Shown here piece by piece: positions 5,767-53,026 of a stretch of 64,000 nucleotides of DNA; positions within the stretch are counted from its first letter, which is position 1; every line of letters begins with the position of its first letter. The stretch is from Hyphomicrobium zavarzinii ATCC 27496 (GTDB lineage: Bacteria > Pseudomonadota > Alphaproteobacteria > Rhizobiales > Hyphomicrobiaceae), in contig NZ_KB911258.1 of NCBI RefSeq assembly GCF_000383415.1, positions 62,001 through 126,000 of the forward strand, in the 5' to 3' direction. The position numbers and the translations under genes were made by a program. The notes beneath the pieces were generated by a model. The model searched no databases and was not told the origin of the DNA. It saw nothing but the letters and a program-made list of their open reading frames with translations.

Positions 5767-5769
5767 GGC

Positions 5770-26950: not shown

Positions 26951-29542
26951 CTACTGGGTTGGCAGCTTCGTATTCGTGATCGGTGTGGTCACGCCGTTCA
27001 CGTGATAGCTGTGGCACAACAGGCAATCCTGACGCGCCATGCCACTGGTGTGGCAGCTCTGGCAGAGGTCCTTCTTCACCGCACCGAAGTTGGATGAGAA
27101 GGTGTGCGGATTGCCCTGCTCGTAGCTCTTGAGATAGGGGCGCTCCTTCTCGAGGTTGTGGCACGTGAGGCAGCCGCGTGACTCGACGCTGCCGAAATGC
27201 GGCTCATGGATGAAGGACGTGAAGCGTCCCTGCTTGCCCGCCGCCGACGCAGAAGAAAAATTGACGAGCCGTCCCTTGCCTTGGACGTCGTCGATGCTGT
27301 GGCACTTCGTGCAAGATCCCTGGGCGTCCTTGCCCGTGAGAGCATCGAAGACTGCCGTCGCCGGGCTCGCATTGCCCTTCGACGCGTGAGGCCCTGTCAG
27401 AACGAGCCACGAATAGACGAATTTGTCCTTGTGGCCCGTGGGGCGGTAGTAGATCGCGTAATCCTGTCGGTACCAGCCGCCATAGTCGGCCCAGCTCTCC
27501 GGATCGACATCGCTTGCGATGCTGATGACGGGCGCCGCGCCCTTTGGAGACGCCCCTGACCCGGAGGCCGGGCTTCCGGCTTCAGCGTCGGCACGTGCCT
27601 CGATGGCGGCCTCCTTGGATGCCGCGCGATCCGGCTTGGCGTCTCTGGCCTCGGCCTTTCCGTCTGCGCGTTCGGACTGCGCCGCTGCCACCGCGGGGCT
27701 CTTTGTGCCCGCTTTGATCGCGCGAAGCTCATCCTCCGTCGGGAACAGCAGATCGTCGGTTTGCTCGGTAGCTTTTCCTGGAGGCTCTTCGGCCGGAGGC
27801 TGTGCCTCCTTGGTGGCATCGGGCTTCGGCGCGGCGTCGGCGTTTCCGACGCCACCTTCCTTTAAGCTTGGTTTGTCTGCGCGATCCGGGTCGCCCGCGC
27901 GACGCACGTCATCGTTGCGATCTTCCTTTTCGGTCTTTCCGCTCGGCGGTTCGGCGTCGCCCGCCTGCTCCGCGTCCTTTCTGCGAGCCTCGATCGCGCG
28001 AGGTGTTCCGCTCGGCAAGAGCGAGCGCCCTTTGATGGGACCGCCGGTGTCCTCTCCGGATGCCCCATCGCTGCTGTCTTCCGGCCCGGCGTTCGTGGTG
28101 TAGGTCTTCACCTCCACGCCATGGGGCTTGGCTGGTTTACTCCCGGAATCCTGCTGGCTGGGATTCTTAGCGGCCGGGGCCGCATCCTCCGAGGCCCGCG
28201 CCTCGCGTTCGGAAGTTGCCCCGCCCGGGCTCGCGTCCTCGATCGTTGCGCTCCAGCCGCTTTGCTTCTGATCGCGCGCCTGCGGCCGGTTCGCCATCTC
28301 CGTCGCGAGGTTGGGAAGCCACTGCTGTTGCGCGCTGACGATCACATCGCGCGGAATGCTTGCGGTGAGGTCGGTGACGAGACCGGGGGAGAGCGTCGCA
28401 CCGCCGCCGATGTCGAAGGTGCCGAGCACGTCCGAGGCTTTTCCCGAGATGAGAGCGTGGAACAGCCCCTTGATCTCCCACGCGAGCCTGGTCACGGCCC
28501 GGATCTGCTCATCGGTGGCGGCCGTCAGGTCCTGCAGGTTGAGGCTGTCCACCGCCTTGATCAACGCGCGGCCGTCCTCGTTCCGGCTGATCATCATTTT
28601 CATGAACGGCGTGAGATCGGCTTCGGACGCATCGGGCCATTCGCCGACCGAGGCTTTCTTCTTTTTGAGCGTCACGAGGTCGAGGCCGGGCACGCTGAGG
28701 AACGCGATGCCTTTTGGTCCGCTGGCCCGCTCCTTGCCGGCGATCTGGTCGAGATGACAGCCGGTGCAGGTTTGCTCGAAGGGCGCGACCGCCATCACGC
28801 GCTTGTCCTCCCGGCTGTTGTGGCAGGCCGAGCAGGTGTCGGGGATGCGCCGTCCCGGGGTCTTCTTCGCCACTTCCGGGAAATGCTTACCGAAATGTCC
28901 GGCATGATCGTAGACGATGCGTGAGCGCCTTTTGAACGGATAGGCTTCGAACTGCGGGTGGCGGCTGTCGAAGCTGTCGAACTTCACCACGTGGCAGGAG
29001 CGGCACTGCTCATTGGAGATCTTGGCGAGATCGAAAGTGGCGCCCCGATGCTCCTGATGACAGGTCGCGCAAAAGAGTCCCCGTTCGACCACGTCATGGG
29101 TGGGAAAGGCGGCGGCCTGCGCGCGCGCCGCGTGCGGCTGAGGGGTTTGCGCTGCGATTTTGGTCAGCCGTCTCGTGCTCTGCTCCAGCACGTCGGCCGA
29201 AGCTCCATGCGCATTGAAGGCCGTGTCCGGCATTTTGTGGCAGGTGAGGCACGCCTTGCTGTCGGCAAGCGGGTCGCCGGCGACGAGACCATGGACCCAG
29301 CTTAATTTGCTGTCGCCGTTCTTGGTGTGGCAGGCGCTGCATTTCTCGATGCCGCCGTGAGCGCTCGCAAGCGGCCCCGGCATGAAAAGCTGCGTCCCCT
29401 TGGAGAGCAGCAACGCCGCGCCCACGCAGACGACAGTCGCGAGCGCGAGCGCTTTGGCAATGCGATCGCGGGAAGCGCCGGGCGCCGCCTGTGCCTCTGA
29501 CTTCAGCGGCCAAACCGAGCTGATCCAGTCGGGGCGCCACAT
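26951..29542 (-). CDS. Membrane-anchored decaheme cytochrome c with long linker
   Basis: 863 residues. ATG overlaps the stop of the cytochrome b gene (TGATG), so the two are translationally coupled. One N-terminal transmembrane helix (residues 28-47) anchors the protein in the inner membrane. Ten CXXCH haem motifs start at residues 68, 98, 158, 180, 237, 259, then 744, 791, 827 and 840: six in an N-terminal domain with doubled-CXXCH/c7-like spacing and four in a C-terminal domain. Residues 265-740 between them have no haem; about 430-670 are Ala/Glu/Lys/Pro-rich and look disordered. Likely passes electrons between the b subunit and periplasmic carriers. Not assigned to a named family. Confidence 0.88.
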   Translation of the reverse strand: MWRPDWISSVWPLKSEAQAAPGASRDRIAKALALATVVCVGAALLLSKGTQLFMPGPLASAHGGIEKCSACHTKNGDSKLSWVHGLVAGDPLADSKACLTCHKMPDTAFNAHGASADVLEQSTRRLTKIAAQTPQPHAARAQAAAFPTHDVVERGLFCATCHQEHRGATFDLAKISNEQCRSCHVVKFDSFDSRHPQFEAYPFKRRSRIVYDHAGHFGKHFPEVAKKTPGRRIPDTCSACHNSREDKRVMAVAPFEQTCTGCHLDQIAGKERASGPKGIAFLSVPGLDLVTLKKKKASVGEWPDASEADLTPFMKMMISRNEDGRALIKAVDSLNLQDLTAATDEQIRAVTRLAWEIKGLFHALISGKASDVLGTFDIGGGATLSPGLVTDLTASIPRDVIVSAQQQWLPNLATEMANRPQARDQKQSGWSATIEDASPGGATSEREARASEDAAPAAKNPSQQDSGSKPAKPHGVEVKTYTTNAGPEDSSDGASGEDTGGPIKGRSLLPSGTPRAIEARRKDAEQAGDAEPPSGKTEKEDRNDDVRRAGDPDRADKPSLKEGGVGNADAAPKPDATKEAQPPAEEPPGKATEQTDDLLFPTEDELRAIKAGTKSPAVAAAQSERADGKAEARDAKPDRAASKEAAIEARADAEAGSPASGSGASPKGAAPVISIASDVDPESWADYGGWYRQDYAIYYRPTGHKDKFVYSWLVLTGPHASKGNASPATAVFDALTGKDAQGSCTKCHSIDDVQGKGRLVNFSSASAAGKQGRFTSFIHEPHFGSVESRGCLTCHNLEKERPYLKSYEQGNPHTFSSNFGAVKKDLCQSCHTSGMARQDCLLCHSYHVNGVTTPITNTKLPTQ

Positions 29543-30417
29543 CACCAGGCTCCCGATGAAAACGCGTACGCGACGAGGACGTGCAGCACCCCGAGAACCG
29601 TCAGCCCATAAGTGACGGGCACATGGAGGAACAGCCAGCCTTTGGTGAGCGAGAGATAGACACGGGCGAAATCCAGCCGGTCCTTCTCGACGACCAGACG
29701 CCTGATGGCACCCAGTTTCTCCTGGCCCTGCTGGCCTACATAGCGCGAGAGGGCGTCGATCTCGTCGGTCATCCGCCTGAGCGGACGCTGCGAGCCGACG
29801 AGATGGGCGAGCATGTTGCGCGGGCCCTGGAAGAAGGCGCTGAGATGGGTGGAGTAAAGATCCGCGATCCACGCATCATGCGGCAGTCCCGGCAAGGCGA
29901 TTGCGGTCGCTGCCGGATCGGGTGTCGCGACGATGGCATAAACCTTCTGCGCGATCTCGGCGCGAAGGGCCGGGATGCGATCGTAGCTCACGCCCTCGTC
30001 GATATGGCCCTTCGCCTTCAACGACCAAGCGAGATAGGTGCCGAATATGCCGCTCAGCGTCACCAGCACGAAGCCCGCCCACAGCGCCCATTCGAAGCCG
30101 GTATCCGGCAGAGAAAAATCCGAATGCGAGATGAAGGCGGCGATTAGCAGATATCCGGCGAAGACATGGATCTTCCGCCAGCGCGTGGCGGATTTCGGCG
30201 AGAACGCGCCCCGTTTGATGGCGACGTGGAAGGAGATCTGCAGCCCCATCCCGCCCGCCAGAATCCAGCCGTCGAGATAGCGCGGATCGCGCAGCCCGTT
30301 GCCATAGATCCACACGAGCCAGAACAGCGCGCCCGAGAGGGCCGCGATCAAAGCCCCCTGAACGATCTGGCTTGCGGGATATTTCGCCGGGCGGCGCCCG
30401 ATGGCGTCAGGTGTCAC
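29542..30417 (-). CDS. Diheme cytochrome b membrane subunit
   Basis: 291 residues, five hydrophobic helices. Two helices each carry a pair of His with the spacing HX13H: His84/His98 (IHVFAGYLLIAAFISHSD) and His265/His279 (LHVPVTYGLTVLGVLHV). That is the bis-haem arrangement of cytochrome b and ferric-reductase-like proteins, so two b haems spanning the membrane are expected. Residues 135-255 form a soluble loop. Coupled to the decaheme gene, it looks like a split version of the Geobacter CbcL design (b domain plus multihaem c), a quinone-linked electron-transfer module. Quinone binding is inferred. Confidence 0.85.
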   Translation of the reverse strand: MTPDAIGRRPAKYPASQIVQGALIAALSGALFWLVWIYGNGLRDPRYLDGWILAGGMGLQISFHVAIKRGAFSPKSATRWRKIHVFAGYLLIAAFISHSDFSLPDTGFEWALWAGFVLVTLSGIFGTYLAWSLKAKGHIDEGVSYDRIPALRAEIAQKVYAIVATPDPAATAIALPGLPHDAWIADLYSTHLSAFFQGPRNMLAHLVGSQRPLRRMTDEIDALSRYVGQQGQEKLGAIRRLVVEKDRLDFARVYLSLTKGWLFLHVPVTYGLTVLGVLHVLVAYAFSSGAW

Positions 30418-30466
30418 GGCAGCACCTCAGGACTTGCTCAAACGCGTGGCTCTGCTCCCAAAGGGA

Positions 30467-31441
30467 TCAATTCGGCGGCTTTCTCGCTGTGCCCTTGTAT
30501 TTGTCCGGCCCGGGGATGAGGCTATCGAGCCCCGTCATCGTGCTGCCGTCGTACTTCTCGGTAATGAGGACGAGTTGCTGCGAGACGCCGTCGGCTGCGG
30601 CGGTCAGGCGCCGCTCATTGTTCAGCCTCAGCCCGGCCGACTTGGAAAACTTGATGATCTCCGCGATCTCCGGCACGTCCGGCGCGGCCTGCGCTGCCGC
30701 GGTGAGTTGCTTGCGCGCGCGGTCGGCACGCTTGGCCATCTCGAAGGCGTAGAGCCATCTGACTTTCGCCCGGCCGATCCCGCGTAGCGCGGTCTCGAGC
30801 TCCACGCCGAGGCCAACGAGATAGAGCATCCGCCTGCGGGCCGCGCTGGCCGCCACGTTCTCTCTGCCCTTCGAATACCAGGTGTTGTGCCGGACCTCGC
30901 CCTGCGACCAGGACACCAGCTCGAAGTCGCTCCCGGACTTGTGCCCGCCTTTGTTGACGAGATCCTCTTGCGGCACCACGTGGCAGCCGTAGCAGTTCTT
31001 CGCCAGCAGGTAGAACGAGCGCGGCCGGATCATTCCCTTTGAATCGGAGAGCTTCCAGCGCTCCTTCTCCTCGGCCTTGCTTTCGAACAGAACGGTCTTT
31101 CCGCTGAACCCGCTGTGAACCTTGATCCAGTCCTGCCCGGCGCTGTGGCAGGATTCGCAGGAGATGCCTGCGATCGGCTCCTCCCTGTTGGTCTTCTGCT
31201 GCGTCGTGAAGTGGCAGCTCTTGCACAAGTTGTCCGACTTGATGCGCCGCACGCCCATTTTATCGGCAATCTCGTTGGCCTTCGTGTCGCGCGGCAACTC
31301 GCGGAATGTTTTGAAATGATGCGTGCCTTTCCAGGCTTCGGCTTCTTCCTTGTGGCATTCCGCGCAGGCATTAGGCCCGACTGTCTTCGCTGGGTCGGAC
31401 GCAGTTGCGCCCGCCGCGGCGAAGCCGAGAAGCATCAGCAA
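30467..31441 (-). CDS. Periplasmic tetraheme cytochrome c (c554-like)
   Basis: Four CXXCH motifs at residues 26, 73, 95 and 150 (numbered from the TTG at 31441). The first, CAECHKEEAEAWKGTHH, has the CXXCH...W...TxH pattern of the cytochrome c554/c-prime domain; GISCESCHSAGQDW is a further c554-like block. After the last haem there is a His-poor helical region. The start is unclear: from TTG or ATG (31435) the signal peptide is too short, whereas the same frame extends upstream through RSIRFGAG and SSVLLVCGLL to an in-frame stop at 31535, with an ATT codon at 31528 behind AAGGGTGAG. Overlaps the reductase if that start is used. Confidence 0.82.
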   Translation of the reverse strand: MLMLLGFAAAGATASDPAKTVGPNACAECHKEEAEAWKGTHHFKTFRELPRDTKANEIADKMGVRRIKSDNLCKSCHFTTQQKTNREEPIAGISCESCHSAGQDWIKVHSGFSGKTVLFESKAEEKERWKLSDSKGMIRPRSFYLLAKNCYGCHVVPQEDLVNKGGHKSGSDFELVSWSQGEVRHNTWYSKGRENVAASAARRRMLYLVGLGVELETALRGIGRAKVRWLYAFEMAKRADRARKQLTAAAQAAPDVPEIAEIIKFSKSAGLRLNNERRLTAAADGVSQQLVLITEKYDGSTMTGLDSLIPGPDKYKGTARKPPN

Positions 31442-31505
31442 GCCGCAGACGAGAAGAACGGAAGACCGGACAGGCGAGCCAGCGCCGAACCGGATCGACC
31501 GAAGG

Positions 31506-32597
31506 CTATGCGCTCTGAGGACGATAATGACTTCTCACCCTTGCGTCGGCCAAACTTGCAGCCTCCATCGGCAGCTCTCGCGGAGTGCGGAAGCGATTGA
31601 GAGCGAGCCACCCGAATGTGCGGCTCAGCCCGCTTTGCGCGGACGCGCCGTCTGCGGTCGGCAGGAAAGGATCCGCATGGCAGGTCACGCCGGCCGCAGC
31701 GGCGATGGCTTTGACGGAGCCCACCATCTCCGGCGCGCCGCAGGCGTAGATCACGTCGCTCCGCAGCAGGCGCGGCAGATAGTCCGTCGGCCGGCCTGGC
31801 TGAACCGCTGAGATCGGCGCCTCGAGCGTGCTGCACACAGGCACCACATGGACATTTGGGAAGCTCGCGAGCCGCACGAGAGCGGGAGCCATGTAGAGCG
31901 ATCCCAGGGCGCGTCCTCCGGCGATGATCATCATCATGCGCGCTGGGTTCTCGCGAAGCGCGGCGACGGCAATCGACCAGATCGGCGCAAAGCCGGTGTT
32001 GGTTGCGACGAGCAGCAGCCGGCCATTCAGATTGGGCCGGAAGTGCGCCGAGCCGTAAGGTCCGGAAAGCGTCACCCGATGACCGGGCTTGATGCGCTTG
32101 CCGAGCGACGAGGTCACCAAGCCGTTGCTCATGCGCCGGACGTGAAACCAGATCGACGCGCCGCTTGCATCGCCGTGCAAGGGGTGGGTGATGCTGAATG
32201 GACGGCTCGGATATCCGTTGAAGCGCATCTGCACGTACTGTCCCGCGTGATAGGGAAGCGCGCGCTGGGTCCGTATGCCGACCTCGATCACCTCCGGCGA
32301 GAGGGGGCGCAACGAGCTCAGCACACCCTCGACCGTGCGAGCACCCGAAGGTTGCTTTTTCTCGATCACCACGTCGTCGACGATGCGGCACTGGCAGGCA
32401 TGAACAATGCCAGCCTCGGAGCCCGCGCCACCGCTCACCTCGCCCGCGACCAGCCTGACGCAGCAAGTGCCGCAATGGCCAGCTCGGCAGTCGTGAGGCA
32501 GGTTGACGCCATTGCTGAGCGCCGCATCCAGGAGAAGCTCGCCGTGGTGCGCGAGGAAGCATTGTCCGTTGATCGTGATTTGGTGACGTCGCGTCAT
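31506..32597 (-). CDS. 2Fe-2S/FAD/NAD(P) oxidoreductase (ferredoxin-reductase type)
   Basis: 363 residues. An N-terminal plant-type ferredoxin domain has Cys37, Cys42, Cys45 and a fourth Cys at 68 (CRAGHCGTC, then HACQC). A ferredoxin-NADP reductase module follows: RPFSITHP (FAD site, RxYS-like), LSGPYGSAHF, LLLVATNTGFAPI (NAD(P) phosphate loop) and YACGAPEMVGSVK near the C-terminus. This is the oxygenase-reductase architecture (as in NqrF-like or phenol/xylene reductases). No signal peptide is visible, so it acts on the cytoplasmic side. First gene of the minus-strand cytochrome operon; it could link NAD(P)H to the cytochrome b subunit, which is inference. Confidence 0.9.
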   Translation of the reverse strand: MTRRHQITINGQCFLAHHGELLLDAALSNGVNLPHDCRAGHCGTCCVRLVAGEVSGGAGSEAGIVHACQCRIVDDVVIEKKQPSGARTVEGVLSSLRPLSPEVIEVGIRTQRALPYHAGQYVQMRFNGYPSRPFSITHPLHGDASGASIWFHVRRMSNGLVTSSLGKRIKPGHRVTLSGPYGSAHFRPNLNGRLLLVATNTGFAPIWSIAVAALRENPARMMMIIAGGRALGSLYMAPALVRLASFPNVHVVPVCSTLEAPISAVQPGRPTDYLPRLLRSDVIYACGAPEMVGSVKAIAAAAGVTCHADPFLPTADGASAQSGLSRTFGWLALNRFRTPRELPMEAASLADARVRSHYRPQSA

Positions 32598-33275
32598 TGT
32601 GCAGCCCCGGCAGGATTGAGGAGCGCGCTCCGAGAAACGTGTCAGGCGCAATGATTATAGGGATTTGCCTAAAGACCCATCGTGGTCGGAGAATGACATT
32701 TTGTTGGCGATATACGTCTATTTGCGGAAATGAAGATTTCAAGAATAACAAATAAAAAGAAACAGCAACGGCTGTTCATGTGTCAATTGTGGCGAAATAT
32801 CGGTGCCATATGAATAAGCAGATTCGCAATAACGAATTGAGCGGCGCTTTTATTCCATGCAGGATTTTGAGCGTCCGCGCGGGCGTTTGCGATGCCCAGA
32901 GTGAACCGTGTTTTTGATGCTCCGGCATGCGATAGGTTTTATCATGGATGAACAGTGTTGTGTTCGTTCGGGCTCAAAGACGAAGCGAACAAAAAGCTTC
33001 TTGGAGTCAGGCGATCGCGCGGCATCTGCTCAGCGAATTGTTTTGTATGTGTCCTTCCGTTTTGGATGCTCGGATTGAACGTTGCGCGACGGTGGGTGGA
33101 TGATCGTCTCAGTTTTTGCATTTTTCGCGTAATTTCTATTTTATTCGCAGCCTTATCGCCGACAATTTTCACGTACTAATTTTGGATCAGAAATTCCATG
33201 CGGCGGTCGGGCGCCGTTTTCGCGCAAGCGAGTTGAATGGGATGCTGCCCTGAAATTTATCGAGATGGTAAGGCG
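32598..33275. promoter_or_regulatory. Divergent regulatory region of the multihaem cytochrome locus
   Basis: 678 bp between two divergent operons. Much of it looks clearly AT-rich in a GC-rich window (for example AAGAATAACAAATAAAAAGAAAC near 32735-32760, and TTTTTGCATTTTTCG near 33113-33127), with no convincing gene. Expected to contain both promoters and regulator sites. I found no clear sigma-54 -24/-12 element with correct GG-N10-GC spacing and no TTGAT-N4-ATCAA FNR box. Confidence 0.7.
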
Positions 33276-35228
33276 ATGAAAAGATTGCCCGATGCTTCGA
33301 TTGTTTCGTGCGTTCTCGCGAGCGCGATGCTGCTGAGCCCAGCAGTCCTGGCCCCGGCGATCCTCGGCCATGCTATGGCCGGATCAGCCGGAGCCGGGCC
33401 GGTGAAGACCGCGGAGACGCAGCGTGGAGCACCGCTCGCGCGAAGCGACAAGGCAGAAGCCAACGCGGCCGATGTGCGCACGCCACCCCAGGCGGCCAGC
33501 AAGGGGGATCAGAAGAGTAAGCTCAAGGCGGAGGAGAAATCCGTCAAGAAGGCCGATCTTGATAAGGCGAAGCCCGAGGGGCACGACAGCCTCCTCAACG
33601 ACGAGACGCTCTATCCCACCGCCGCGCAATGCGGTGAATGCCACAAGCAGATTTACGAGGAGTGGGCGTCGTCACAGCACGCCTACGCGTCGATCTCGCC
33701 GATGTTCCACAAGTTCGAGCAGAAGTTCCAGGACCTGACCCAGGGCACGGTCGGCACCTTCTGCGTGCGCTGCCATCAGCAGGTCGGCACCCAGCTTGGC
33801 GAGAACCGTGAAACCCCGCTCTGGGCGCGCAGCCAGATATCGCGGGAAGGCGTGAGCTGCATCACTTGCCACCGCGTGAAGGAGCAATACGGCAAGGTCA
33901 ACGGGGAGCGCCGCGTCGAGCCGGGCAAGATCTACGAGCCGGTCTATGGCAGCGGTGAGAAGAGCGTCATCAAAGACGTGCTGGCAAACAAGGAGACCTT
34001 CGCCGTCAAGACCAGCCCGAAGGGGCGCGGCAACGACATTCACAAAGGCATGATCACCAACGATCAGATCACCAAGTCGGAGTTCTGCGTGAGCTGCCAT
34101 CAGGTGGCGGTCAATCTCGGGATCAAGCTCGAGATCGTCTGGGACCAGTATCGCGACAGCCCGGCGCGCAAAGCCGGCGTCACCTGCCAAGATTGCCACA
34201 TGGGCAAGGTGCCAGGAAAGCCCGAAGGCTATGCGACGGCGCCCTCCGCCATCGTCGGCGGCAAGGAGGTCAATCCGGGGCGCAAGCACGCCAACCATCG
34301 TTTCATCGGTCCGGGCTACTCCATCGCTCACCCCGGCGTCTTCCCGCACAACACTAAGGCGCAAGCGATCAGCATCAAGGATTGGCTGGAGTTCGACTGG
34401 CGTGCCGGATGGGGCACCTCGGAGTTCGAGGACAAGGTCGCCGACGGCAAGGTCAAGACCGCGTTCCCGAAGCGGTGGGCGGACGCGGCCGAGCGCGAGG
34501 ACGCGCGCCAGATCATCGACGAGAATCTGAAGCGACTCGACGAGCGCGACGAGATCCGCCAGCAGGTGCTTGAAAACGGCAGCCACGTCGACGGCCCGAA
34601 CATCGAGGGCACGCCAGCGGTCGGCAAGGATTTGGCGTTCTCCTACAAGATCAAGAACACCAACTCCGGCCATAACCTGCCGTCTGGATCGCTGGGTGCG
34701 CAGCCTCAGCTCTGGGTGAACGTCGCGCTCCTCGATCCCGATGGCCAGAACATCTGGGAGTCGGGCTATGTCGACAGCAACGGCGACATTGCCGACCTGC
34801 ACAGCCTGGACGTCGCGGCAGGGCGCATCAAGACGGATCAGCAGTTGGTGCACTTCCAGACCAAGTTCCTGACCACCAACGTGAAGGGCACGGAGCGTGA
34901 GATGTACCTCCCGGTAAATTTCGACATCGATCCGCTGCCGCATCTGCGTCCGCCGGGTGTGCCGACCACCGTGCTCAACCATCCTCCGCTCGTGCGCATG
35001 GAGAACCGCTCGTTGCCGCCGTTGGCCGAGAAGGCGGCGCGCTACAAGGTGCCGGGCAACCTCATCACCAAGCCCGGCAAATACCGCCTGGCGTTCCGCA
35101 TGCGCAGCCGCGCCGAGCCGATCTACTTCATGCGTTTCGTCGGCTCCACCAAGGAAATGGAGCAGAGCATGAACGAGCGCATCATGAACTTTCACGCCTA
35201 CGCCGTGGAGTTCGACGTGAAGGGCTAG
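33276..35228 (+). CDS. Secreted pentaheme cytochrome c with C-terminal beta domain
   Basis: 650 residues, ATG behind GGTAAGG. Signal peptide at about 5-35 (ending HAMAG), then an Ala/Lys-rich linker to residue 100. Five CXXCH motifs at 119, 163, 195, 271 and 304, in a cytochrome c554-type domain; HANHRFIGPGYSIAHPG at about 350-366 provides further His that could be distal ligands. The second half (from about 440) has no haem and reads as a beta-sandwich (LAFSYKIKNTNSGHNLPSGS, then LWVNVALLDPDGQNIWESGY). First gene of the plus-strand operon, 80 bp before the barrel protein. Likely a periplasmic or outer-membrane-associated carrier; partner choice is inferred. Confidence 0.86.
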   Translation: MKRLPDASIVSCVLASAMLLSPAVLAPAILGHAMAGSAGAGPVKTAETQRGAPLARSDKAEANAADVRTPPQAASKGDQKSKLKAEEKSVKKADLDKAKPEGHDSLLNDETLYPTAAQCGECHKQIYEEWASSQHAYASISPMFHKFEQKFQDLTQGTVGTFCVRCHQQVGTQLGENRETPLWARSQISREGVSCITCHRVKEQYGKVNGERRVEPGKIYEPVYGSGEKSVIKDVLANKETFAVKTSPKGRGNDIHKGMITNDQITKSEFCVSCHQVAVNLGIKLEIVWDQYRDSPARKAGVTCQDCHMGKVPGKPEGYATAPSAIVGGKEVNPGRKHANHRFIGPGYSIAHPGVFPHNTKAQAISIKDWLEFDWRAGWGTSEFEDKVADGKVKTAFPKRWADAAEREDARQIIDENLKRLDERDEIRQQVLENGSHVDGPNIEGTPAVGKDLAFSYKIKNTNSGHNLPSGSLGAQPQLWVNVALLDPDGQNIWESGYVDSNGDIADLHSLDVAAGRIKTDQQLVHFQTKFLTTNVKGTEREMYLPVNFDIDPLPHLRPPGVPTTVLNHPPLVRMENRSLPPLAEKAARYKVPGNLITKPGKYRLAFRMRSRAEPIYFMRFVGSTKEMEQSMNERIMNFHAYAVEFDVKG

Positions 35229-35308
35229 CCCCGAGGGCCGGGCGTTTCGAATTGGGTGAGTTCAAAGACGCGCGTATCCAGCCTTGCTCCGCTGGTTAGT
35301 GCCACGGC

Positions 35309-36973
35309 GTGGAGTTCCACATGATGTGTATTGCGTACCGTGCGAGCACAACGATTGCCGGTGTCGTCCTGTCGGTGGGCGCTTATCTCGCCATATCCGG
35401 TGCGACGGCCGGTGAAAGCGCAGGCGGCGCCCAAGCGCAGGGATGGTCGACCGAAGTGTTGCCGCGGACCTCCTGGGTCGATGCCGGAGAAGGCCGCGCC
35501 GCTCCCCAGCACCTGGGCGCTGCGCCAGAGGAGGAAACTGCGGAGAAGAAGACCTCCGACAAGGCCCCCGGCAAAGCCAAGACCAAGACCGCAGCAAAAA
35601 CCAAGGCCAAGGAAGATTTGTTCCGCCCCGATCCGCAATACGAAGGCGGCTACAATCCGCAAGGACAGGTCGACATCTATGGCGCGAAGAGTGCCGTCGA
35701 GCCCCCGCGCCCGCCGGTGGAGATCGGGCGTCAGCAGTACACCTCCGGCATTTATGACGAGAGCAGCACGCTCTTTGGCGCGAAGAACCCGCTTCTTCCC
35801 GGCCTTGCGGTTTACGGCGATTGGCGCACGGCGGTCGCCTACAACAACAATAACGGCAAGGACATCGCGCAGATCGCGACGCGTCTGAACCTCGACGTGG
35901 ACTTCAAGATCACCGGCACCGAGCGCATTCACGCGTTCTTCACGCCGCTTCAGAAGGCAAACAAGGAGTTCACGCGCTTCGAGTTCGGCGGCGCCGACGG
36001 AAACGGAAAGTTCAACGACGAGCTCGACCTCAATCCGCAGACGCTGTTCTTCGAGGGAGACTTCGGCTCGATCTACTCCGGCCTCTCCGGCACGGAAGCG
36101 AGTTTCGATCTGCCGTTCACCGTGGGTCTCTTCCCGCTGTTCCTGCAGAACGGCATCTGGGCCAACGACGCAATCCTCGGCGGCGCCGTGAGCCTCCCCG
36201 CAAAGAACTCGGCGGCGCTCGGCCTCTCCAACTTCGACGTGACCTTCTTCGCGGCCTTCGACAACGTCGACAACGCGGGCCTCATCGGAAACGCGAAGGG
36301 CGACAACCACCTCGCCAACCTCTATGGCGTGACCGCCTTCATCGACGCCTTCGACGGTTACGTCGAAACGGGCTACGGCCTGATCCAGGGGCGTGACGAG
36401 CAGGAGGATCTTCTCACGCACTTCTTCACGGCCGCCTATACGCACCGCTACTACAACACGGTTTCGAATTCGACCCGCGTGTTCGCGAACTTCGGTGATG
36501 CTCCCAACGGAGAGAGCGATGGCGTCGCCGTCATTTCGGAAAACAGCCTGGTCACGGGCCTGCCGAGCACGCTTCTGCCCTACGCAAACTTCTTTGTCGG
36601 CTTCGGCAATCCGCAGCCTCTGGTAGACGGCAACGGCGCCGGCATCCTGAAGAACGTCGGTATCAACTTCGAGACCGATGCCCTCACCGGATACCCGAAA
36701 CTCGACGACACCGGCTCCAACGCCTTCGGTGGCGCGCTCGGCTTGCAGTATCTGTTCAACCTCGACCAGCAACTCGTCTTCGAGGTGGCAATGGTGGAGC
36801 CGTTCGATAACGACGGTGTCGGCGCCAAGGACACGCAGTATGGCTTCGGCGTTCGCTATCAGATCCCGATCGATCGGGCCTGGCTGTTCCGCGCCGACGC
36901 AACCTATCAGATCCTCGAAGGCGAGGATGAAGACAACTTCGGCATCCGCGCCGAGGTCAGGAGAAAGTTCTGA
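35309..36973 (+). CDS. Outer membrane beta-barrel (porin-like) protein
   Basis: Up to 554 residues; a second Met-Met at 35321-35326 is an alternative start nearer the signal peptide (TIAGVVLSVGAYLAISGATA). A Lys/Ala-rich stretch (about 80-105) precedes the barrel, which has many alternating strands with aromatic girdles (LFFEGDFGSIYSGLSG, VETGYGLIQGR, TAAYTHRYYN) and ends ...GIRAEVRRKF, a terminal-Phe BAM signal. Length after the linker (about 440 residues) fits roughly 16-20 strands, smaller than MtrB or PioB. Encoded between a pentaheme cytochrome and haem-supply genes, so it may form a porin-cytochrome conduit; not recognisably MtrB. Confidence 0.82.
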   Translation: MEFHMMCIAYRASTTIAGVVLSVGAYLAISGATAGESAGGAQAQGWSTEVLPRTSWVDAGEGRAAPQHLGAAPEEETAEKKTSDKAPGKAKTKTAAKTKAKEDLFRPDPQYEGGYNPQGQVDIYGAKSAVEPPRPPVEIGRQQYTSGIYDESSTLFGAKNPLLPGLAVYGDWRTAVAYNNNNGKDIAQIATRLNLDVDFKITGTERIHAFFTPLQKANKEFTRFEFGGADGNGKFNDELDLNPQTLFFEGDFGSIYSGLSGTEASFDLPFTVGLFPLFLQNGIWANDAILGGAVSLPAKNSAALGLSNFDVTFFAAFDNVDNAGLIGNAKGDNHLANLYGVTAFIDAFDGYVETGYGLIQGRDEQEDLLTHFFTAAYTHRYYNTVSNSTRVFANFGDAPNGESDGVAVISENSLVTGLPSTLLPYANFFVGFGNPQPLVDGNGAGILKNVGINFETDALTGYPKLDDTGSNAFGGALGLQYLFNLDQQLVFEVAMVEPFDNDGVGAKDTQYGFGVRYQIPIDRAWLFRADATYQILEGEDEDNFGIRAEVRRKF

Positions 36974-36990
36974 CAGGGGGAGGCCAGGCC

Positions 36991-37383
36991 ATGACGTACA
37001 CGAGTTTGTTCGCGAGGGGCGTGATGGCGTGTCTGCTGCTTGCGTGTCTCCTCGGAACGCCGCCGGTGATCTCGCCCGCGTCGGCCGGTCAATCCGGCGC
37101 GAAGGCGCGGGAGAGCAGGAGCTACGTTCTTGAAAGCAGGAGATACGCTCACAGGCGCGCTCGTGCCCCGCGCATCTGGTTGCCCGTGGGGCCGGCATAC
37201 ATCTACTACGACTATCCCTACTACTACGCCCGCGGCCACTATCCGAAGCACATCGGCGGCTATGTCTACTACATCCCGAGATCCGGAGGCGGCTGCACCG
37301 AACGGAGCCGGAAGTGTGTCGCCAAGGCGGGCTATCACCGCGCCGCGTCGTGGCGCCAGAGGAGGGCTTGCGGATGTCGTTGA
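36991..37383 (+). CDS. Small secreted Tyr/Arg-rich protein
   Basis: 130 residues. Signal peptide at residues 9-32 (MACLLLACLLGT...PASA). The mature part is basic and Tyr-rich (PAYIYYDYPYYYARGHYPK, then GGYVYYIPR) with three late Cys. No family recognised. Its last 10 bp overlap the start of the TPR gene, so it is cotranslated with the operon. May be a matrix or outer-membrane-associated protein. Confidence 0.65.
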   Translation: MTYTSLFARGVMACLLLACLLGTPPVISPASAGQSGAKARESRSYVLESRRYAHRRARAPRIWLPVGPAYIYYDYPYYYARGHYPKHIGGYVYYIPRSGGGCTERSRKCVAKAGYHRAASWRQRRACGCR

Positions 37384-38309
37384 CGCTCATCGGATGGCTT
37401 CTGATCGTCTCGTCCGTCGCCGTGTCGGCGCGGTTGATGGTCTCGCTGCTTACAAAAGGCTCGCGGAAAGAGCGGCTGGATCTCGCCTGGAGCGCGCTTC
37501 CGCAGGATATTCACGCGCGGCTCAAGCTGCGGAAGCTGAACACTGCGACCTCCGGAAGCCTCATCGCGGCGGCAGCGGCATTCCTTGCCGTGGCTGGCAT
37601 CGGCACAGCCACATCCTACGTGGCGAAGGGGCCTGAGCCCTCTCCCGCGGAGGAGAGCGATGGCGCAATCCTCGCGCGCCTCGACGACTACACCCGCTCC
37701 ATCGGGCCTGTGCCGACGGCCTCGGCAGACACCTCGGCGTCGACGTCGGACAAGATGCTTCCAGATGTGAGCACCATGATCGAGCGGCTCGCGGCTCGGC
37801 TCGAGGCCGCGCCGGGCGACCTCCAGGGCTGGCGCATGCTCGGCTGGTCCTACTTCAACACCGGGCGTTATGCCGAGGCGGCAGGCGCCTATGCGCGGGC
37901 GGTAGAGCTTGATGCGAGTTCGGAGGAGCTGAAGCGGGCGCTGGACCAGGCGAAAACGAAAGCGTCCGAAAGCAACGGAGCGGAGATGAGAGCGTCTTCG
38001 CAAACGGCGCCCGAAGGCACGGGCAGCGGCACACCGGACGCCGGGAAGGAGCACGCGCCCGAAGCAAGGCCGTCGGGCGAGCAGGGCGCCGCCATCCGGT
38101 CCATGGTCGATGGCCTGGCGGAGCGACTGGAAAGCGCTCCGCGCGACATCGAGGGCTGGACACGCTTGATGCGCTCTCGCGTCGTGCTGGGCGAGAGGGA
38201 GGCCGCCACGGCGGCGTTCCGCAAGGCGCTCGAAGTCTTCAAGGACGACGCGACCGCATCCGGCCAGATCATGGCCGCGGCGGCTGAGCTTGGCTTGAAG
38301 ACCGAATGA
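37374..38309 (+). CDS. CcmI/CycH-like TPR protein of cytochrome c maturation
   Basis: 311 residues from the ATG behind GAGGGCTTGCGG. Two transmembrane helices (residues 3-22 and 62-80) flank a short basic loop, as in CcmI. Two TPR-like blocks follow, with nearly parallel wording: [22 protein letters not shown] and [22 protein letters not shown], the signature of the periplasmic part of CcmI/CycH, which presents apocytochrome c to the haem lyase. No other ccm gene is here, so this looks like a locus-specific maturation accessory. Start of hemA overlaps its stop. Confidence 0.8.
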
Positions 38310-38344
38310 GCGTGCGCGCTCCTGTCGAAAAGACGGAGGTGGAT

Positions 38345-39577
38345 ATGAATTTCGAAGACATGGTCAAGCGACGCCTAGAGGCCCTTCACCGGGAAGGCCG
38401 CTATCGCGTCTTTGCGGACTTGAAACGCCGCCGCGGGTGCTTTCCGGTTGCAGACTATTTCGCGACGGAAGGGCCGCGTGAGGTCACGGTTTGGTGCTCC
38501 AACGATTATCTCGGCATGGCCCAGCACCCGGCGGTGTTGGCGGCCATGCACGAGGCGATCGACGTTGCTGGAGCCGGCTCCGGCGGCACGCGCAATATCT
38601 CCGGTACGACACGCTATCACGTGGAGCTCGAGAGCGAGCTCGCCGACCTCCACGGCAAGGAAGCGGCCCTTCTTTTCACATCGGCCTACGTCGCCAACGA
38701 CGCGACGCTCTCGACCCTCGTCGCGCTCGTCCCCGGTACAGTCGTCTTCTCCGATGAGAAAAATCATGCCTCAATGATCGAGGGCATCCGCCGCGGGCGG
38801 GGTGAGAAGCAGATATTCCGCCACAACGACGTGGCCGATCTCGAAGCGAAGCTCAAAAAATTTCCCAAGGGCACGCCGAAGATCATCGCTTTCGAGAGCG
38901 TCTACTCCATGGATGGGCATATCGCGCCACTCGCGGAGGTCTGCGATCTCGCCGAGAAATACGGGGCGATGACCTATCTGGACGAGGTGCACGCCGTCGG
39001 TCTCTATGGCCCGCGTGGCGGCGGCATTGCCGAGCGCGACGGCGTGATGCACCGCATCGACGTCATCAACGGCACACTGGCCAAGGGATTCGGCGTGATG
39101 GGCGGCTACATCGCAGGCTCTCGCACGCTCTGCGATGCCATCCGCTCATTCGCCCCCGGGTTCATCTTCACGACCTCGCTTCCGCCCGCGATCGCGGCAG
39201 GCGCGCTCGCCTCCATCCGCCATTTGAAGAGCAGCACGATTGAGCGGGCCCGCCATCAGGAGCGGGTGCGGACGCTGAAGAGCGCGCTTCACGCCAGGCG
39301 CCTGCCTGTCATGGACAACCCGAGCCACATCGTGCCCGTGGTGGTCGGCTGCCCCGTTCACTGCAAGGCCGTGACGGATGCGCTCCTCCACCGTCACGGG
39401 ATCTATGTGCAGCCGATCAACTATCCCACGGTGCCGAAGGGTACCGAGCGTATGCGCCTCACGCCGTCACCCGTGCACACCGACGAGCAGATGGCGTGTC
39501 TCGTCCATGCGCTCGAACAGCTCTGGGCCGCTTGCCCCGTGCCGAACGGCACCTACGCCCGTCTGGCGGCGGAATAG
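38345..39577 (+). CDS. hemA: 5-aminolevulinate synthase
   Basis: 410 residues from the ATG behind GGAGG; an in-frame ATG at 38306 overlaps the TPR stop (ATGA) and adds 13 residues. PLP-dependent alpha-oxoamine synthase features: [46 protein letters not shown] and the Schiff-base Lys247 in [13 protein letters not shown]. It condenses glycine and succinyl-CoA, the C4 haem route of alphaproteobacteria. Placement directly after cytochrome genes suggests it boosts haem for multihaem cytochromes. Whether the genome has a second ALAS elsewhere cannot be seen here. Confidence 0.95.
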
Positions 39578-40313: not shown

Positions 40314-40907
40314 ATGGAGACGCTCTACAGATCGCCATGGGCAGATCAGACGTGCGGAGAGCTCGCGTGGGGCGCCGCCGGGTGGGCGGTTGTCCTGGTG
40401 CCGCTGATCATGGCGGGTCTCTACGCAATCCTGCGTCTCTTCATGCGCAGGGACGTGAACCAGCTTCGCGTGCTCAACATCCTGTTCCTGGTGCTGTCGC
40501 CGGTCTTGCTGATCGCTGTGGTGTGGGTGTTCCTCACCACGCTGCACCAGCTCCAAAGCATCGAGGTATCGGACGGCCGTATGGTGGTGGACACGTGCAC
40601 GGGCGCGAGTGCGGGGACGCGCGTGGTGGAAAAAACTGGCGTTGCCGGGATCGTGCACCGCGTTGGGCAGAGTGGAGGGAAGTCGCCCAAGCCGCTGGAT
40701 GAGATCGTGGTCAGCGTGAAGGATGAAGCTCCCGTGATCATCCCGGCCTGGGATTTCGGCAGAATGAACTTCACGGTGCTCCAGCGCCTCGTGCCACGCG
40801 AGCAGCTCGCCGCGTGGGCCAACGCCATGCGGGCGCGAGGCGAGACGCCGCCTCCCGAGATCGCCTGCCTCGTGACGGGAAGCGAAACGGATTGCGCAGC
40901 TCGCTAG
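40314..40907 (+). CDS. Two-helix membrane protein of unknown function
   Basis: 197 residues; GTG at 40311 is the alternative start. Hydrophobic helices at about 18-45 and 57-79 (LFLVLSPVLLIAVVWVFLTTL) are followed by a soluble region that looks beta-rich (about 80-197), ending with a Cys pair in IACLVTGSETDCAAR. No family recognised. Convergent with the ThDP enzyme gene, overlapping by 4 bp. Confidence 0.7.
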   Translation: METLYRSPWADQTCGELAWGAAGWAVVLVPLIMAGLYAILRLFMRRDVNQLRVLNILFLVLSPVLLIAVVWVFLTTLHQLQSIEVSDGRMVVDTCTGASAGTRVVEKTGVAGIVHRVGQSGGKSPKPLDEIVVSVKDEAPVIIPAWDFGRMNFTVLQRLVPREQLAAWANAMRARGETPPPEIACLVTGSETDCAAR

Positions 40908-42592
40908 CGCGACTTCTCCCCCGCCGCGCCTTCACGCACGCCCGAAAGCGTCTCCATCGGGTTGATGGCCTCGGGATCGAGCTTGAGGTTGATGACGAAC
41001 GGCCTGTCCGCGTGGAGTGCAGCGCGGAAGACACCCTCGAAATCCGCGCCACGCGTCACCGTTTCGCCGTGCGCGCCGTGGCTCCTGGCAAGCGCGGCAA
41101 AATCGGGATTGACGATGCTGGTGCCGTTGGGGCGCCCCGGATACGCGCGCTCCTGATGCATGCGGATGGTGCCATACATGCCGTTGTTGGCGATCAGGAT
41201 CACCATCGGCAATCCATACTGGACCGCCGTGCCGAGCTCGTTGGAGGTCATTGCGAAGCAGCCGTCTCCGGCGAAGCAGACGACGGGTGCCTCCGGGTGC
41301 TCGAGCTTGGCCGCGATCGCTGCCGGAAGGCCGTAGCCCATTGTCCCCGACGTGGGCGCGAGCCCGCTGCGGAAGCGCTTGAACTCGAAATAGCGGTGCA
41401 CCCATTGCGAGTAGTTGCCCGCACCGTTTGTGATGAGCCCGCTTTCCGGCAACACGCGCGAAACCGTGGTGACGACGTCCTCCATTCGCACCGCTCCCGG
41501 CGTGGCGCGTGGCGCGAGGCTCGCTTCGTAAGCGGCCCTGAGATCGGACCTGAACCGGCTCCAGCGCCGCTCGGGAGGCGTGCCGCCTGCGGGGCCGCGC
41601 AGATTGGGCGCGAAGCCGGGCAGCGTTTCCGCGAAGGCTTCCGACGTTGCGGCGATGACGAGCGAGGCATCGCGATAGCCGAGAATGGCGCTGGGCTCCG
41701 GATGCACCTGCACGAACGTCTGCCCCGGCCCGCCGAGCAGCGAATAGCCGCCGGTCGCGATGTCGCCCAGTTCCGCGCCGATCGCGATCACGAGGTCGGC
41801 CGCGCGCAGCCCGTCCTTGAGCTTCCGGTCGGTCGTGAAACCGAGATGCCCCACGTAGCAGGGATGGCGGTTGTCCACGTAGTCCTGGCAGCGGAACGAG
41901 GATGCGATAGGGAGGTCGAAGGCCGCCGCGAAAGTCCCGATCGCGCGGCCCACGTCCGCACTCCAGCCAGGCCCGCCGACGACCAGAAGCGGCCGTTCGG
42001 CTGCTTCGAGGCGCTGGGCGAGCTCGCTCATGTCACGGGAGGTGGGGGCGCCGCCAGCAAGCGACGTGGGCGGAACGAGCGGCGCCGTGCTGGGGGACGA
42101 CAGCACGTTCTCCGGCAGCCCGATCACCACAGGTCCCGGACGGCCCGACTGCGCTACGCGGAAGGCGCGCCCCACATATTCGGAGATCCGGTCCGCCGAG
42201 CGTATCACCGCCGTCCACTTGGCGATACCCGCGAACAGAGCCTCGATGTCGATCTCCTGGAACGGAGCCCGTTCTTCGAGCGGCGTCGTCGGCAGTCCGA
42301 CGAACAGGATCATCGGGGTCGCATCCTGTTGCGCGACGTAGACCCCCGCCACGGCGTTGACGACGCCGGGCCCGCGCGTCGCAAATGCGATCCCGGGCCG
42401 GCCGGTGAGCTTGCCGGTCGCTTCCGCCATAAGCGCCGCGCCGCCCTCGTGACGGCAGATGATGGTTTGCATCGCGGGCATATCGTAGAGGCCGTCCAGC
42501 GCCGCCAGGAAGCTCTCGCCCGGGACCTCGAAGATGCGGGAGACACCATGGGCCGCGAGCTGATCGATCAGGATCTTTCCACCGTGCGCCAT
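40904..42592 (-). CDS. Thiamine-diphosphate-dependent enzyme, acetolactate synthase-like
   Basis: 562 residues. N-terminal Pyr domain with the catalytic Glu in CRHEGGAALMAEA and FATRGPGVVNAVAG; central domain; C-terminal PP domain with the ThDP/Mg motif GDGCFAMTSNELGTA...NNGMYGTIRM. This is the IlvB-like group. No ilvN small subunit or other branched-chain gene is near, so it may be a different ThDP enzyme (for example a decarboxylase or carboligase) rather than the biosynthetic acetohydroxyacid synthase. The start gives MAHGGKILIDQLAAHGV, the usual N-terminus. Confidence 0.85.
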   Translation of the reverse strand: MAHGGKILIDQLAAHGVSRIFEVPGESFLAALDGLYDMPAMQTIICRHEGGAALMAEATGKLTGRPGIAFATRGPGVVNAVAGVYVAQQDATPMILFVGLPTTPLEERAPFQEIDIEALFAGIAKWTAVIRSADRISEYVGRAFRVAQSGRPGPVVIGLPENVLSSPSTAPLVPPTSLAGGAPTSRDMSELAQRLEAAERPLLVVGGPGWSADVGRAIGTFAAAFDLPIASSFRCQDYVDNRHPCYVGHLGFTTDRKLKDGLRAADLVIAIGAELGDIATGGYSLLGGPGQTFVQVHPEPSAILGYRDASLVIAATSEAFAETLPGFAPNLRGPAGGTPPERRWSRFRSDLRAAYEASLAPRATPGAVRMEDVVTTVSRVLPESGLITNGAGNYSQWVHRYFEFKRFRSGLAPTSGTMGYGLPAAIAAKLEHPEAPVVCFAGDGCFAMTSNELGTAVQYGLPMVILIANNGMYGTIRMHQERAYPGRPNGTSIVNPDFAALARSHGAHGETVTRGADFEGVFRAALHADRPFVINLKLDPEAINPMETLSGVREGAAGEKSR

Positions 42593-42820
42593 GAAGTTCC
42601 GCGGTCCGTTTGTTCGAGGTTTACCTTCACACATAGGACACACGAGCCGCCGGGGCTACCTCTTGCGGCGGCGCAGCTCGGCGAGCGGGCCGCGCGTGGG
42701 CTCGTTAGGTAAATACCGACGGTAAACAGGCGCGCAAATTATCCACACTGCGCTGTGGCCAAAGCGACGCTAGCCGCCTCCCGCATCCAGCCGGTATTCT
42801 GCTCTGGAACAGGAGAGGTG

Positions 42821-51798: not shown

Positions 51799-53022
51799 CT
51801 ATGCGAGTAGCGCGTTGCGGATCCAGATCGCGACGCCGTAGACGAAGAACACGCCGATCCACACCACGAGCACGGCGACTGCAGCCGTGCCGAGACGCGC
51901 GATCGGGGGCTCGGCGGTATAGGTGCCCTGCACACGGCCAGCGCGGTAGAGGAGCGCCAGGTAGTAGCCGCCAACCAGCCCGCCCACGCCGGCCAGCGTG
52001 GAGAAGAACAGGACAAGGGACGGCCAATCCGCATGGACCTTGTAGTCCGATGCGATGTAGCCGAAGGGCGTGAGGTAGGTGATGCGAACAACCTCTCGCC
52101 AGAAGGCGAGCAGCGCCAGAACGCCGAGGCCGATCCCGAGAAACGCATAGCCGTGAAGGCGCTGGTATCCCGCTGCCGTGAGGCCTGCCAGGACGAGAAG
52201 GAAGCCCGGCAAGAGCCAGCCCAGCGGTTGCTCCGAGAGCCCTGTAGCAGCGGGATGGTCGAGCTGCCACCACGACGCGAGAAGCGCGGAAACGGCCAGT
52301 CCCGGGACGGCGATGGTGCGGCCGAGCAGGCGGGCGAATGCGCGATACTCCGGCGTCTTGTCGGAACGCGTGGCGAAATAGTCCGCATACGCGATCAGAT
52401 AGAGACCGACGGCCGGCGCCGACAGGCTCATGATGAACAAGTAGCGCGGCCATTCGATCGCATGCAGCTTCGAGCCGCTCGTATCGACGACCCCGCCCGG
52501 CGCATACCACTCCATCCACCTGTCAGGCAGGATCGCCTGATAGGCGAGCGCGTGCATGATCAGACCGTCCAGAATGAAGAGAGCCAGGCTCAGCACCGCA
52601 TAGACGCCGATGTAGCGCTTCGCGCCCTCGTGGTTGCCCCAATAGAACGCGAACCACAGGCAATAGCCCGCGATCAGCGTGAAGATGAAGCCGATCGCCC
52701 ACCCCGCCGATAGCACGTTGGAGGTGTACCACTGCGGATCGTAGATCACCTGCGTGAACAGCAGCGGCGCCACGCCGAGCACGATGAGAAGCGAGACGCC
52801 GACCTTGGCGACTTTCGTCATCGCGATCGACATCTGCTCCCAGTAGGGTCCGGCCTCGCGCTTGTAGAACGCGTAGATCGCAAGACCCGCCGCCCCGAGC
52901 GTGAGGTGGACGAAGGCGATGTGGAAGACCCAGGTCCCCACCGCGAGAACCTGGAAGAGCTGAGGCACGGCCGGCACTCCTGCCGGATCGCGCATCGTAT
53001 TCATGATTGTGCCGATATCCAT
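51799..53022 (-). CDS. CydA-superfamily-like membrane subunit
   Basis: 407 residues, nine or ten helices. The first helix reads FHIAFVHLTLGAAGLAIYAF (His34, His39), resembling the haem-ligand helix of CydA (HFLFVPLTLG...). GVAPLLFTQVIYDPQWYTS and the following helix parallel the CydA helices, but the quinol-loop signature GRQPW is absent. Encoded 4 bp downstream of the fused CydA-like/cytochrome c gene, and similar to it in the first helix (HX4H, then GAA), so it looks like the second subunit of a cytochrome bd-superfamily complex. Whether it reduces oxygen is unknown. Confidence 0.72.
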   Translation of the reverse strand: MDIGTIMNTMRDPAGVPAVPQLFQVLAVGTWVFHIAFVHLTLGAAGLAIYAFYKREAGPYWEQMSIAMTKVAKVGVSLLIVLGVAPLLFTQVIYDPQWYTSNVLSAGWAIGFIFTLIAGYCLWFAFYWGNHEGAKRYIGVYAVLSLALFILDGLIMHALAYQAILPDRWMEWYAPGGVVDTSGSKLHAIEWPRYLFIMSLSAPAVGLYLIAYADYFATRSDKTPEYRAFARLLGRTIAVPGLAVSALLASWWQLDHPAATGLSEQPLGWLLPGFLLVLAGLTAAGYQRLHGYAFLGIGLGVLALLAFWREVVRITYLTPFGYIASDYKVHADWPSLVLFFSTLAGVGGLVGGYYLALLYRAGRVQGTYTAEPPIARLGTAAVAVLVVWIGVFFVYGVAIWIRNALLA

Positions 53023-53026
53023 GATG

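Follow-up and report, generated by a model that had tools for sequence, protein, structure and literature searches.

A PCC4 Subgroup I locus of Hyphomicrobium zavarzinii as a candidate for NAD(P)H-driven electron export with a dedicated channel in the outer membrane

We analysed a stretch of 64,000 nucleotides from Hyphomicrobium zavarzinii ATCC 27496 (contig NZ_KB911258.1, positions 62,001 to 126,000; hereafter, the window), which carries at positions 26951 to 39577 a divergent locus of nine genes for multihaem cytochromes, an outer-membrane barrel, and accompanying proteins. This locus is one more member of Subgroup I of PCC4, a system predicted in He et al. 2017 (PMC5566968), and the initial annotation's proposal of an undescribed electron-transfer system was dropped once that description was found. 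PCC4 is real and widespread. The fold of its barrel and its flavoproteins point away from the published iron-oxidation model, and with about even confidence we read the locus as a chain that exports electrons from NAD(P)H and has an outer-membrane channel of its own, rather than as a proven wire across the outer membrane. If the chain does export NAD(P)H electrons and its barrel is a channel in place of a sheath, the use of PCC4 as a marker of iron oxidation would mislead.

Gene content and assignment to PCC4 Subgroup I

The window is part of a 0.64-Mb contig in a genome of 4.65 Mb (estimated completeness, 99.99%). All nine open reading frames (ORFs) first proposed for the locus exist, four on the minus strand and five on the plus strand:

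26951 to 29545, minus strand: decahaem c cytochrome (6 + 4 CXXCH); start GTG/ATG at 29545/29542
29542 to 30417, minus strand: inner-membrane dihaem b protein, the inner-membrane protein (IMP) of PCC4; WX3HX13H twice and SGXXG
30467 to 31441, minus strand: tetrahaem c cytochrome, c554-like; 4 CXXCH, PF13435; start uncertain
31506 to 32651, minus strand: 2Fe-2S/FAD/NAD(P)H reductase of BenC-like layout; PF00111, PF00970, PF00175
33237 to 35228, plus strand: pentahaem c cytochrome, exported; 5 CXXCH, haems in residues 132 to 321
35309 to 36973, plus strand: outer-membrane barrel, OprD/Occ-like fold in the predicted model, ~18 strands; low-confidence Lys/Ala-rich N-terminal linker
36991 to 37383, plus strand: exported Tyr/Arg-rich ORF of 130 amino acids (aa); matches in 4 of 36 Subgroup I loci
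37374 to 38309, plus strand: CcmI-like TPR protein (cytochrome c maturation); PF23914, 53.5 bits against a cut-off of 42; ORF listed from 37314
38306 to 39577, plus strand: 5-aminolevulinate synthase (ALAS); TIGR01821, 667 bits

A recount gave the same CXXCH numbers as before (10 + 4 + 5 = 19), against a mean of 0.04 when the residues of the nine proteins were shuffled 200 times. As to the kinds of protein proposed, Pfam and NCBIfam back the cytochrome c domains, the Fer2/FAD/NAD reductase, the CcmI-like TPR protein, and the ALAS, and the b subunit, the barrel, and the 130-aa ORF (at most an accessory) have no match in these libraries above the curated cut-offs. The decahaem start, previously placed at 29872, is corrected to 29545 or 29542, where it overlaps the stop of the b-protein gene. 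From the ORF translations, the true starts of the reductase, pentahaem, and CcmI-like genes are probably near 32597, 33276, and 37374, respectively. The decahaem protein has one N-terminal membrane anchor (its one hydrophobic segment), and a long charged low-complexity stretch separates its two haem groups.

In the available text of He et al. 2017 (PMC5566968), PCC4 consists of a porin, cytochromes of the periplasm (4, 5, and 10 haems), other redox proteins, and a conserved IMP, which has five helices, an SGXXG motif, and two WX3HX13H motifs. Of its Subgroups I and II, the former is that of Hyphomicrobium; its gene directions are distinct, and it has no pfam13247 Fe-S gene. The window locus shares the porin-like barrel gene (a predicted barrel), the 4, 5, and 10 haem sites, the IMP motifs (W80/H84/H98, S122 to G126, and W261/H265/H279), the two gene directions, the place of a redox gene upstream of the tetrahaem gene, the absence of a pfam13247 Fe-S gene upstream of the IMP, and the Hyphomicrobium host. 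Its IMP has five helices in the predicted model (residues 15 to 40, 45 to 68, 74 to 98, 107 to 136, and a long one at 229 to 287), of which a simple hydropathy scan gives three segments only. Among 65 relatives of the IMP, both WX3HX13H motifs are present in 60 and SGXXG is present in 55. These are the testable features that define the subgroup; relative to its published form, the window has the CcmI-like and ALAS genes in addition.

Conservation and distribution

A pattern scan for relatives of the pentahaem protein over 84,980 species genomes recovered 302 places, the best 80 of which were fetched. The titles of the top-matching relatives are mostly Hyphomicrobium, and those of the fetched loci include Pseudomonadota, Planctomycetota, Verrucomicrobiota, Nitrospirota, Elusimicrobiota, and Myxococcota. 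A pentahaem match was found in 17 of 297 genomes of an order-wide sample and in 41 of 99 genomes of a family sample, where 38 have the close form, our own genome among them. Hyphomicrobium facile DSM 1565 also carries a PCC4 locus (L034).

A check of synteny, suggested with the initial annotation, bears out co-inheritance for six core genes. Wherever a Subgroup I locus yielded decahaem and barrel together (29 of 36), it has all six; in the other 7, one or both of these two were not found. The ALAS, small-ORF, and CcmI-like genes lie outside the core and were recovered in 5, 4, and 24 of the 36 loci, respectively (lower bounds, because several locus contigs stop early). The CcmI-like gene stands after the barrel in 12 of these 24 loci and beyond the decahaem in 12. 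The description of the ALAS as dedicated is weak: it is one of three copies in the genome (the other two, at G000:C4:29017-30258 and C5:35180-36403, are 79% and 76% identical to it) and adjoins the locus in 5 of 36 cases. A fourth match (37%) is probably another acyltransferase. Haem numbers are stable among complete Subgroup I ORFs, with four sites in 30/30 tetrahaem, five in 34/34 pentahaem, and ten in 29/30 decahaem proteins. Pentahaem and barrel genes stand side by side in 75 of the 80 loci; in each of the remaining five, the contig stops close to the pentahaem gene.

Two side observations concern individual loci. The record of L068 is titled Bordetella parapertussis and is a metagenome bin; its genes group with those of L065 (a proteobacterial metagenome-assembled genome), and the label is probably wrong. 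A thiamine-diphosphate enzyme is encoded near the pentahaem gene in four distant loci (L073, L077, L082, and L098) and likewise at window positions 40904 to 42643, possibly by coincidence.

Variants of PCC4

We sorted 90 loci into variants, with I and IV labelled by hand and II and III assigned by a score rule; the divergent L082 and L085 were placed in variant II. The tally is 36 loci in I, 24 in II, 12 in III, and 10 in IV. Eight are unclassified: four on short contigs and four on long ones (L063, L072, L084, and L096) without recognisable inner-module genes. Variants II, III, and IV have homologous tetra-, deca-, and pentahaem cytochromes, IMP, and barrel, and they differ from Subgroup I in an extra cyclic-nucleotide-binding 4Fe-4S protein, for which the 36 Subgroup I loci gave no match of at least 60 bits. 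In variant II, this protein combines cyclic-nucleotide domains with 16 conserved cysteines for four ferredoxin clusters; a further component is an FAD-NAD-2Fe-2S reductase anchored in the membrane. In variant III, a pyridine-nucleotide oxidoreductase is fused to the cyclic-nucleotide/4Fe-4S part, and the decahaem protein has an FHA-like N terminus (17 bits, below the cut-off). Variant IV has the parts of II with a diverged pentahaem protein and barrel: the window pentahaem protein shares 51 to 62% identity with the rows aligned from II, III, and the unclassified loci and 33 to 34% with those from IV, and for the barrel the identity to variant IV is 25 to 27%. The reductase was found in 33/36 loci of I, 15/24 of II, and 8/10 of IV, and the fused form gave a strong match in 7/12 of III; many contigs end early.

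The fusion of cyclic-nucleotide-binding domains to 4Fe-4S clusters, seen in L098 (positions 5222 to 6898) and its relatives, could act as a second-messenger gate on the electron chain. The decahaem protein with the FHA-like N terminus, which would be cytoplasmic, is exemplified by L097 (6720 to 8417), with a relative in L091 (14187 to 15866; 36% identity).

The identities had suggested a mosaic origin of Subgroup I, with an inner module near IV and an outer module near II/III. This idea was dropped after approximately unbiased (AU) tests on "quick" trees of 21 of 33 relatives plus the window. A grouping of I with IV was not rejected for the pentahaem protein (p-AU, 0.654) or the barrel (0.153), and IV as one side was not rejected for the b protein (0.0599), the tetrahaem protein (0.653), or the decahaem protein (0.385). 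The trees differ in branch length and not demonstrably in topology.

The outer-membrane barrel and the cytochromes

The predicted model of the barrel has 19 strand segments from residue 162 on, and by structure comparison it has the 18-strand fold of OprD/Occ. By sequence it does not fall in the OprD/Occ family: no Pfam family matches it, and a search with its profile gave no match to any PDB sequence at E ≤ 1. In the alignment (47 of 78 complete barrel relatives), two loops are conserved and also confidently modelled. The initial view that the locus is not MtrCAB or PioABC holds: the barrel has no match to MtrB_PioB (PF11854), and the best hit in the genome, on another contig, reaches 19.4 bits against a cut-off of 23. 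Of the trans-envelope conduit proposed earlier, what stands is a co-inherited locus for electron transfer, from the flavoprotein in the cytoplasm out to the outer membrane; a wire through the barrel is doubtful in view of its predicted 18-strand, OprD/Occ-like porin fold.

Conserved histidines outside the CXXCH motifs number 4, 6, and 11 for the proteins with 4, 5, and 10 haems, respectively (all but variant III for the tetrahaem; I and IV alone for the decahaem; the pentahaem alignment holds 44 of 88 relatives), and the four of the tetrahaem protein are conserved in variants I, II, and IV. They are thus enough for bis-histidine (bis-His) ligation throughout. Such ligation would fit electron wires and reduction by an outer-sphere route, and it lowers the likelihood of an inner-sphere enzyme, for example a nitrite reductase. 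The pentahaem profile matches two solved structures, "cytochrome c552" (5ze8; E = 5.5e-12) and "Cytochrome c" (28pb; E = 0.0047); the matches are confined to roughly the first three haems, and the C-terminal domain has no Pfam match. Kinship of this protein with Geobacter ExtKL was considered and dropped, as NF040886 scored 36 bits against a cut-off of 250; the search of our own genome lists no match to this model at E ≤ 0.001.

The b protein and the flavoprotein

H84, H98, H265, and H279 of the b protein are invariant in the 62 aligned sequences (61 of 62 listed relatives, with L042 omitted, plus the window; L082, L085, and L094, at >360 aa, had been dropped earlier), and the predicted model has a pLDDT of 91. 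As already pointed out in He et al. (PMC5566968), the IMP resembles ferric reductases and NADPH oxidases (NOX) in its two HX13H pairs; it has no Pfam match to the membrane domain of that family (PF01794). In the fold comparison, the VIA rows fell below the helical-bundle level. The cluster cysteines and other positions of the reductase are kept among 33 aligned sequences. An NAD(P)H-type flavoprotein occurs in each variant, in three layouts, and this, together with the fusion in variant III, suggests an exchange of electrons between the chain and NAD(P)H. With Fe(II) or Mn(II) as the donor, NAD reduction would be thermodynamically uphill, from which we infer an outward flow of electrons.

Proposed electron path and its alternatives

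In the export chain that we favour, the 2Fe-2S/FAD reductase, whose domain content is evident, would oxidise cytoplasmic NAD(P)H and pass electrons to two predicted b-haems of the inner-membrane protein, held by its four invariant histidines; this step would be analogous to that in NADPH oxidases and ferric reductases, where it occurs within one chain. The b protein may then reduce the anchored decahaem protein on the periplasmic side, whose long flexible stretch joins its two haem groups, and electrons would go on to the tetrahaem and then to the pentahaem protein at the outer membrane. A small acceptor, perhaps a redox shuttle or a metal chelate, might be let in or positioned by the OprD/Occ-like channel, and the bis-His haems would then reduce it by an outer-sphere route. 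A more specific version, which we put forward tentatively and with rather less than even confidence, is that of a split trans-periplasmic counterpart of the NADPH oxidases, with an NAD(P)H flavoprotein (under the control of cyclic nucleotides in some variants and perhaps also of an FHA-like domain), a b protein, 19 bis-His haems, and, in place of a sheath, an OprD/Occ-like channel that brings the acceptor to the pentahaem protein.

In the published PCC4 model, a donor outside the cell supplies electrons that move inward and are exchanged with quinone, and PCC4 was put forward as a candidate for Fe(II) oxidation (PMC5566968, as far as its text is available). As a conduit from extracellular Fe(II)/Mn(II) through the barrel and cytochromes to the b protein and the quinone pool, the system would agree with the habitats as well as the model given by He et al. 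2017, the adjacency of the pentahaem and barrel genes, and the sufficient number of histidines for bis-His wires. We nevertheless consider this conduit unlikely, given that NAD(P)H-type flavoproteins with no evident role on a quinone path accompany every variant, that NAD+ reduction from these metals is uphill, that the barrel models as an 18-strand OprD/Occ-like one, and that most carriers lack RuBisCO. In the family sample, RuBisCO is found in 4 of 38 close carriers versus 14 of 58 genomes without the pentahaem protein (10 of 58 at E ≤ 1e-70; raw counts) and in 1 of 3 genomes with a variant-IV-like or partial match, and none is found in our own genome. These counts speak against a general role in Calvin-cycle lithoautotrophy and not against lithoheterotrophy. 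NapA was above the cut-off in 8 of the 99 genomes, including our own, and 2 of these are close PCC4 carriers.

Quite unlikely, in our estimate, is an outward conduit in which the NAD(P)H-driven pentahaem protein threads the barrel to reach extracellular minerals, electrodes, or shuttles. It shares the evidence for direction with the export chain, it would have histidines enough for an all-bis-His wire, and the low-confidence, variable linkers on the pentahaem protein and barrel would accord with it. Such threading would have little room in a barrel of 18 strands, two of whose loops are conserved and modelled with confidence, and among the ORFs of the locus there is no fourth multihaem gene whose product could sit outside the cell. 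Redox maintenance or detoxification appears highly improbable; here the chain, instead of supporting respiration, would reduce a protein of the periplasm or outer membrane, or else a metal or oxyanion that is inhibitory. The accessory distribution (close pentahaem protein in 38 of 99 family genomes) and a layout driven by NAD(P)H with no proton pump in evidence would suit it; against it, inspection by eye recognised no detoxification gene among the recurrent neighbours.

Several points count against the export chain with a channel. Five loci (L063, L070, L072, L084, and L096), with 5 to 10 kb on both flanks, have the pentahaem-barrel pair and no recognisable b-protein or decahaem gene nearby; the outer pair can therefore stand apart from the inner module and may work with other partners. 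The adjacency of the two outer genes is also predicted by a sheath-and-wire pair, and a narrow haem-holding barrel has reportedly been proposed for Cyc2. In the structure search, MOMP ties with OprD/Occ and AlgE lies within 2 Z, so the fold names a barrel class and not a substrate; one of five other barrel loops (residues 415 to 421) likewise shows conservation, at 0.67. Neither by sequence nor by Foldseek (E ≤ 0.001) does the b protein match a solved structure significantly, and its fold thus confirms neither a NOX-like nor a quinone-reactive reading. The flavoprotein was not found in every locus (many contigs end early), and lithoheterotrophy is compatible with the RuBisCO counts. Our literature search turned up no experiment on any PCC4, and the outward direction is deduced from the gene set, where the available text of He et al. 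proposes inflow to quinone (PMC5566968).

Intergenic region and other features of the window

The region between the two operons contains a motif shared with other loci:

32678 to 32707, no strand: shared intergenic motif, putative operator, consensus CATCATGGTCAGACAATGRCCGTTTGATGG; 24/30 positions fit in the window

The window copy compares with a maximum of 18 in 20 shuffles. Across 32 intergenic regions, 14 (the window included) score at least 21/30, 19 score at least 19, and 13 score 18 or less, with 20/30 as the highest shuffle score of any region; the motif was built partly from the same rows on which it was scored. A genome scan with up to 3 mismatches, using a pattern shaped to the window copy, found one forward copy, and the reversed control pattern found two. 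The motif is hence a lead rather than a finding. In the same 32 regions, TTG-N8-CAA occurs 6 times versus 4.9 in shuffles, TTGA-N6-TCAA and CRP-type sites occur 0 times each, and sigma-54 patterns show nothing general (loose pattern, 2 versus 2.7 shuffled; strict pattern in one region, L050, versus 0.0).

Elsewhere in the window, positions 51799 to 54439 (minus strand) encode a pair of neighbouring multi-helix proteins, of which one carries a CXXCH close to its C terminus, with no Pfam match at 1e-5; from their sequences, the pair looks like a cytochrome bd-like oxidase with a c-haem. Two TonB-dependent receptors lie near each other at 57153 to 59621 (minus strand) and 60897 to 63209 (plus strand).

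Comparison with known systems

MtrAB and PioAB have barrels of ~26 strands. The locus has the idea of a barrel with a multihaem cytochrome in common with MtrAB/MtoAB/PioAB, but its barrel is predicted to have ~18 strands, and here it is the pentahaem and not the decahaem gene that adjoins it; the absence of MtrB from the structure-search rows carries no weight in this comparison. With the OprD/Occ channels, the barrel shares its modelled fold at an identity of 6 to 12%, and it differs from them in its pentahaem cytochrome neighbour and long N-terminal linker. The NADPH oxidases and ferric reductases likewise have two HX13H pairs on two helices of a membrane protein and a flavoprotein partner, whereas in PCC4 the flavoprotein is a separate chain and multihaem c cytochromes follow. 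The porin-cytochrome groups of the Sterkfontein metagenomes, described in a 2026 paper (PMC13264449), also combine decahaem and porin genes (a likeness by description); in the available part of that paper, 7 of 11 members of one group have a ferredoxin-NADP+ reductase gene close to the porin-cytochrome genes, and the authors liken their systems to PCC4. Relative to the published PCC4 model, the reading preferred here, a NAD(P)H-driven export chain, differs in the role of the barrel and in the direction of the electrons. A cytochrome chain with a dedicated small-molecule channel would be unlike each of the conduit models named.

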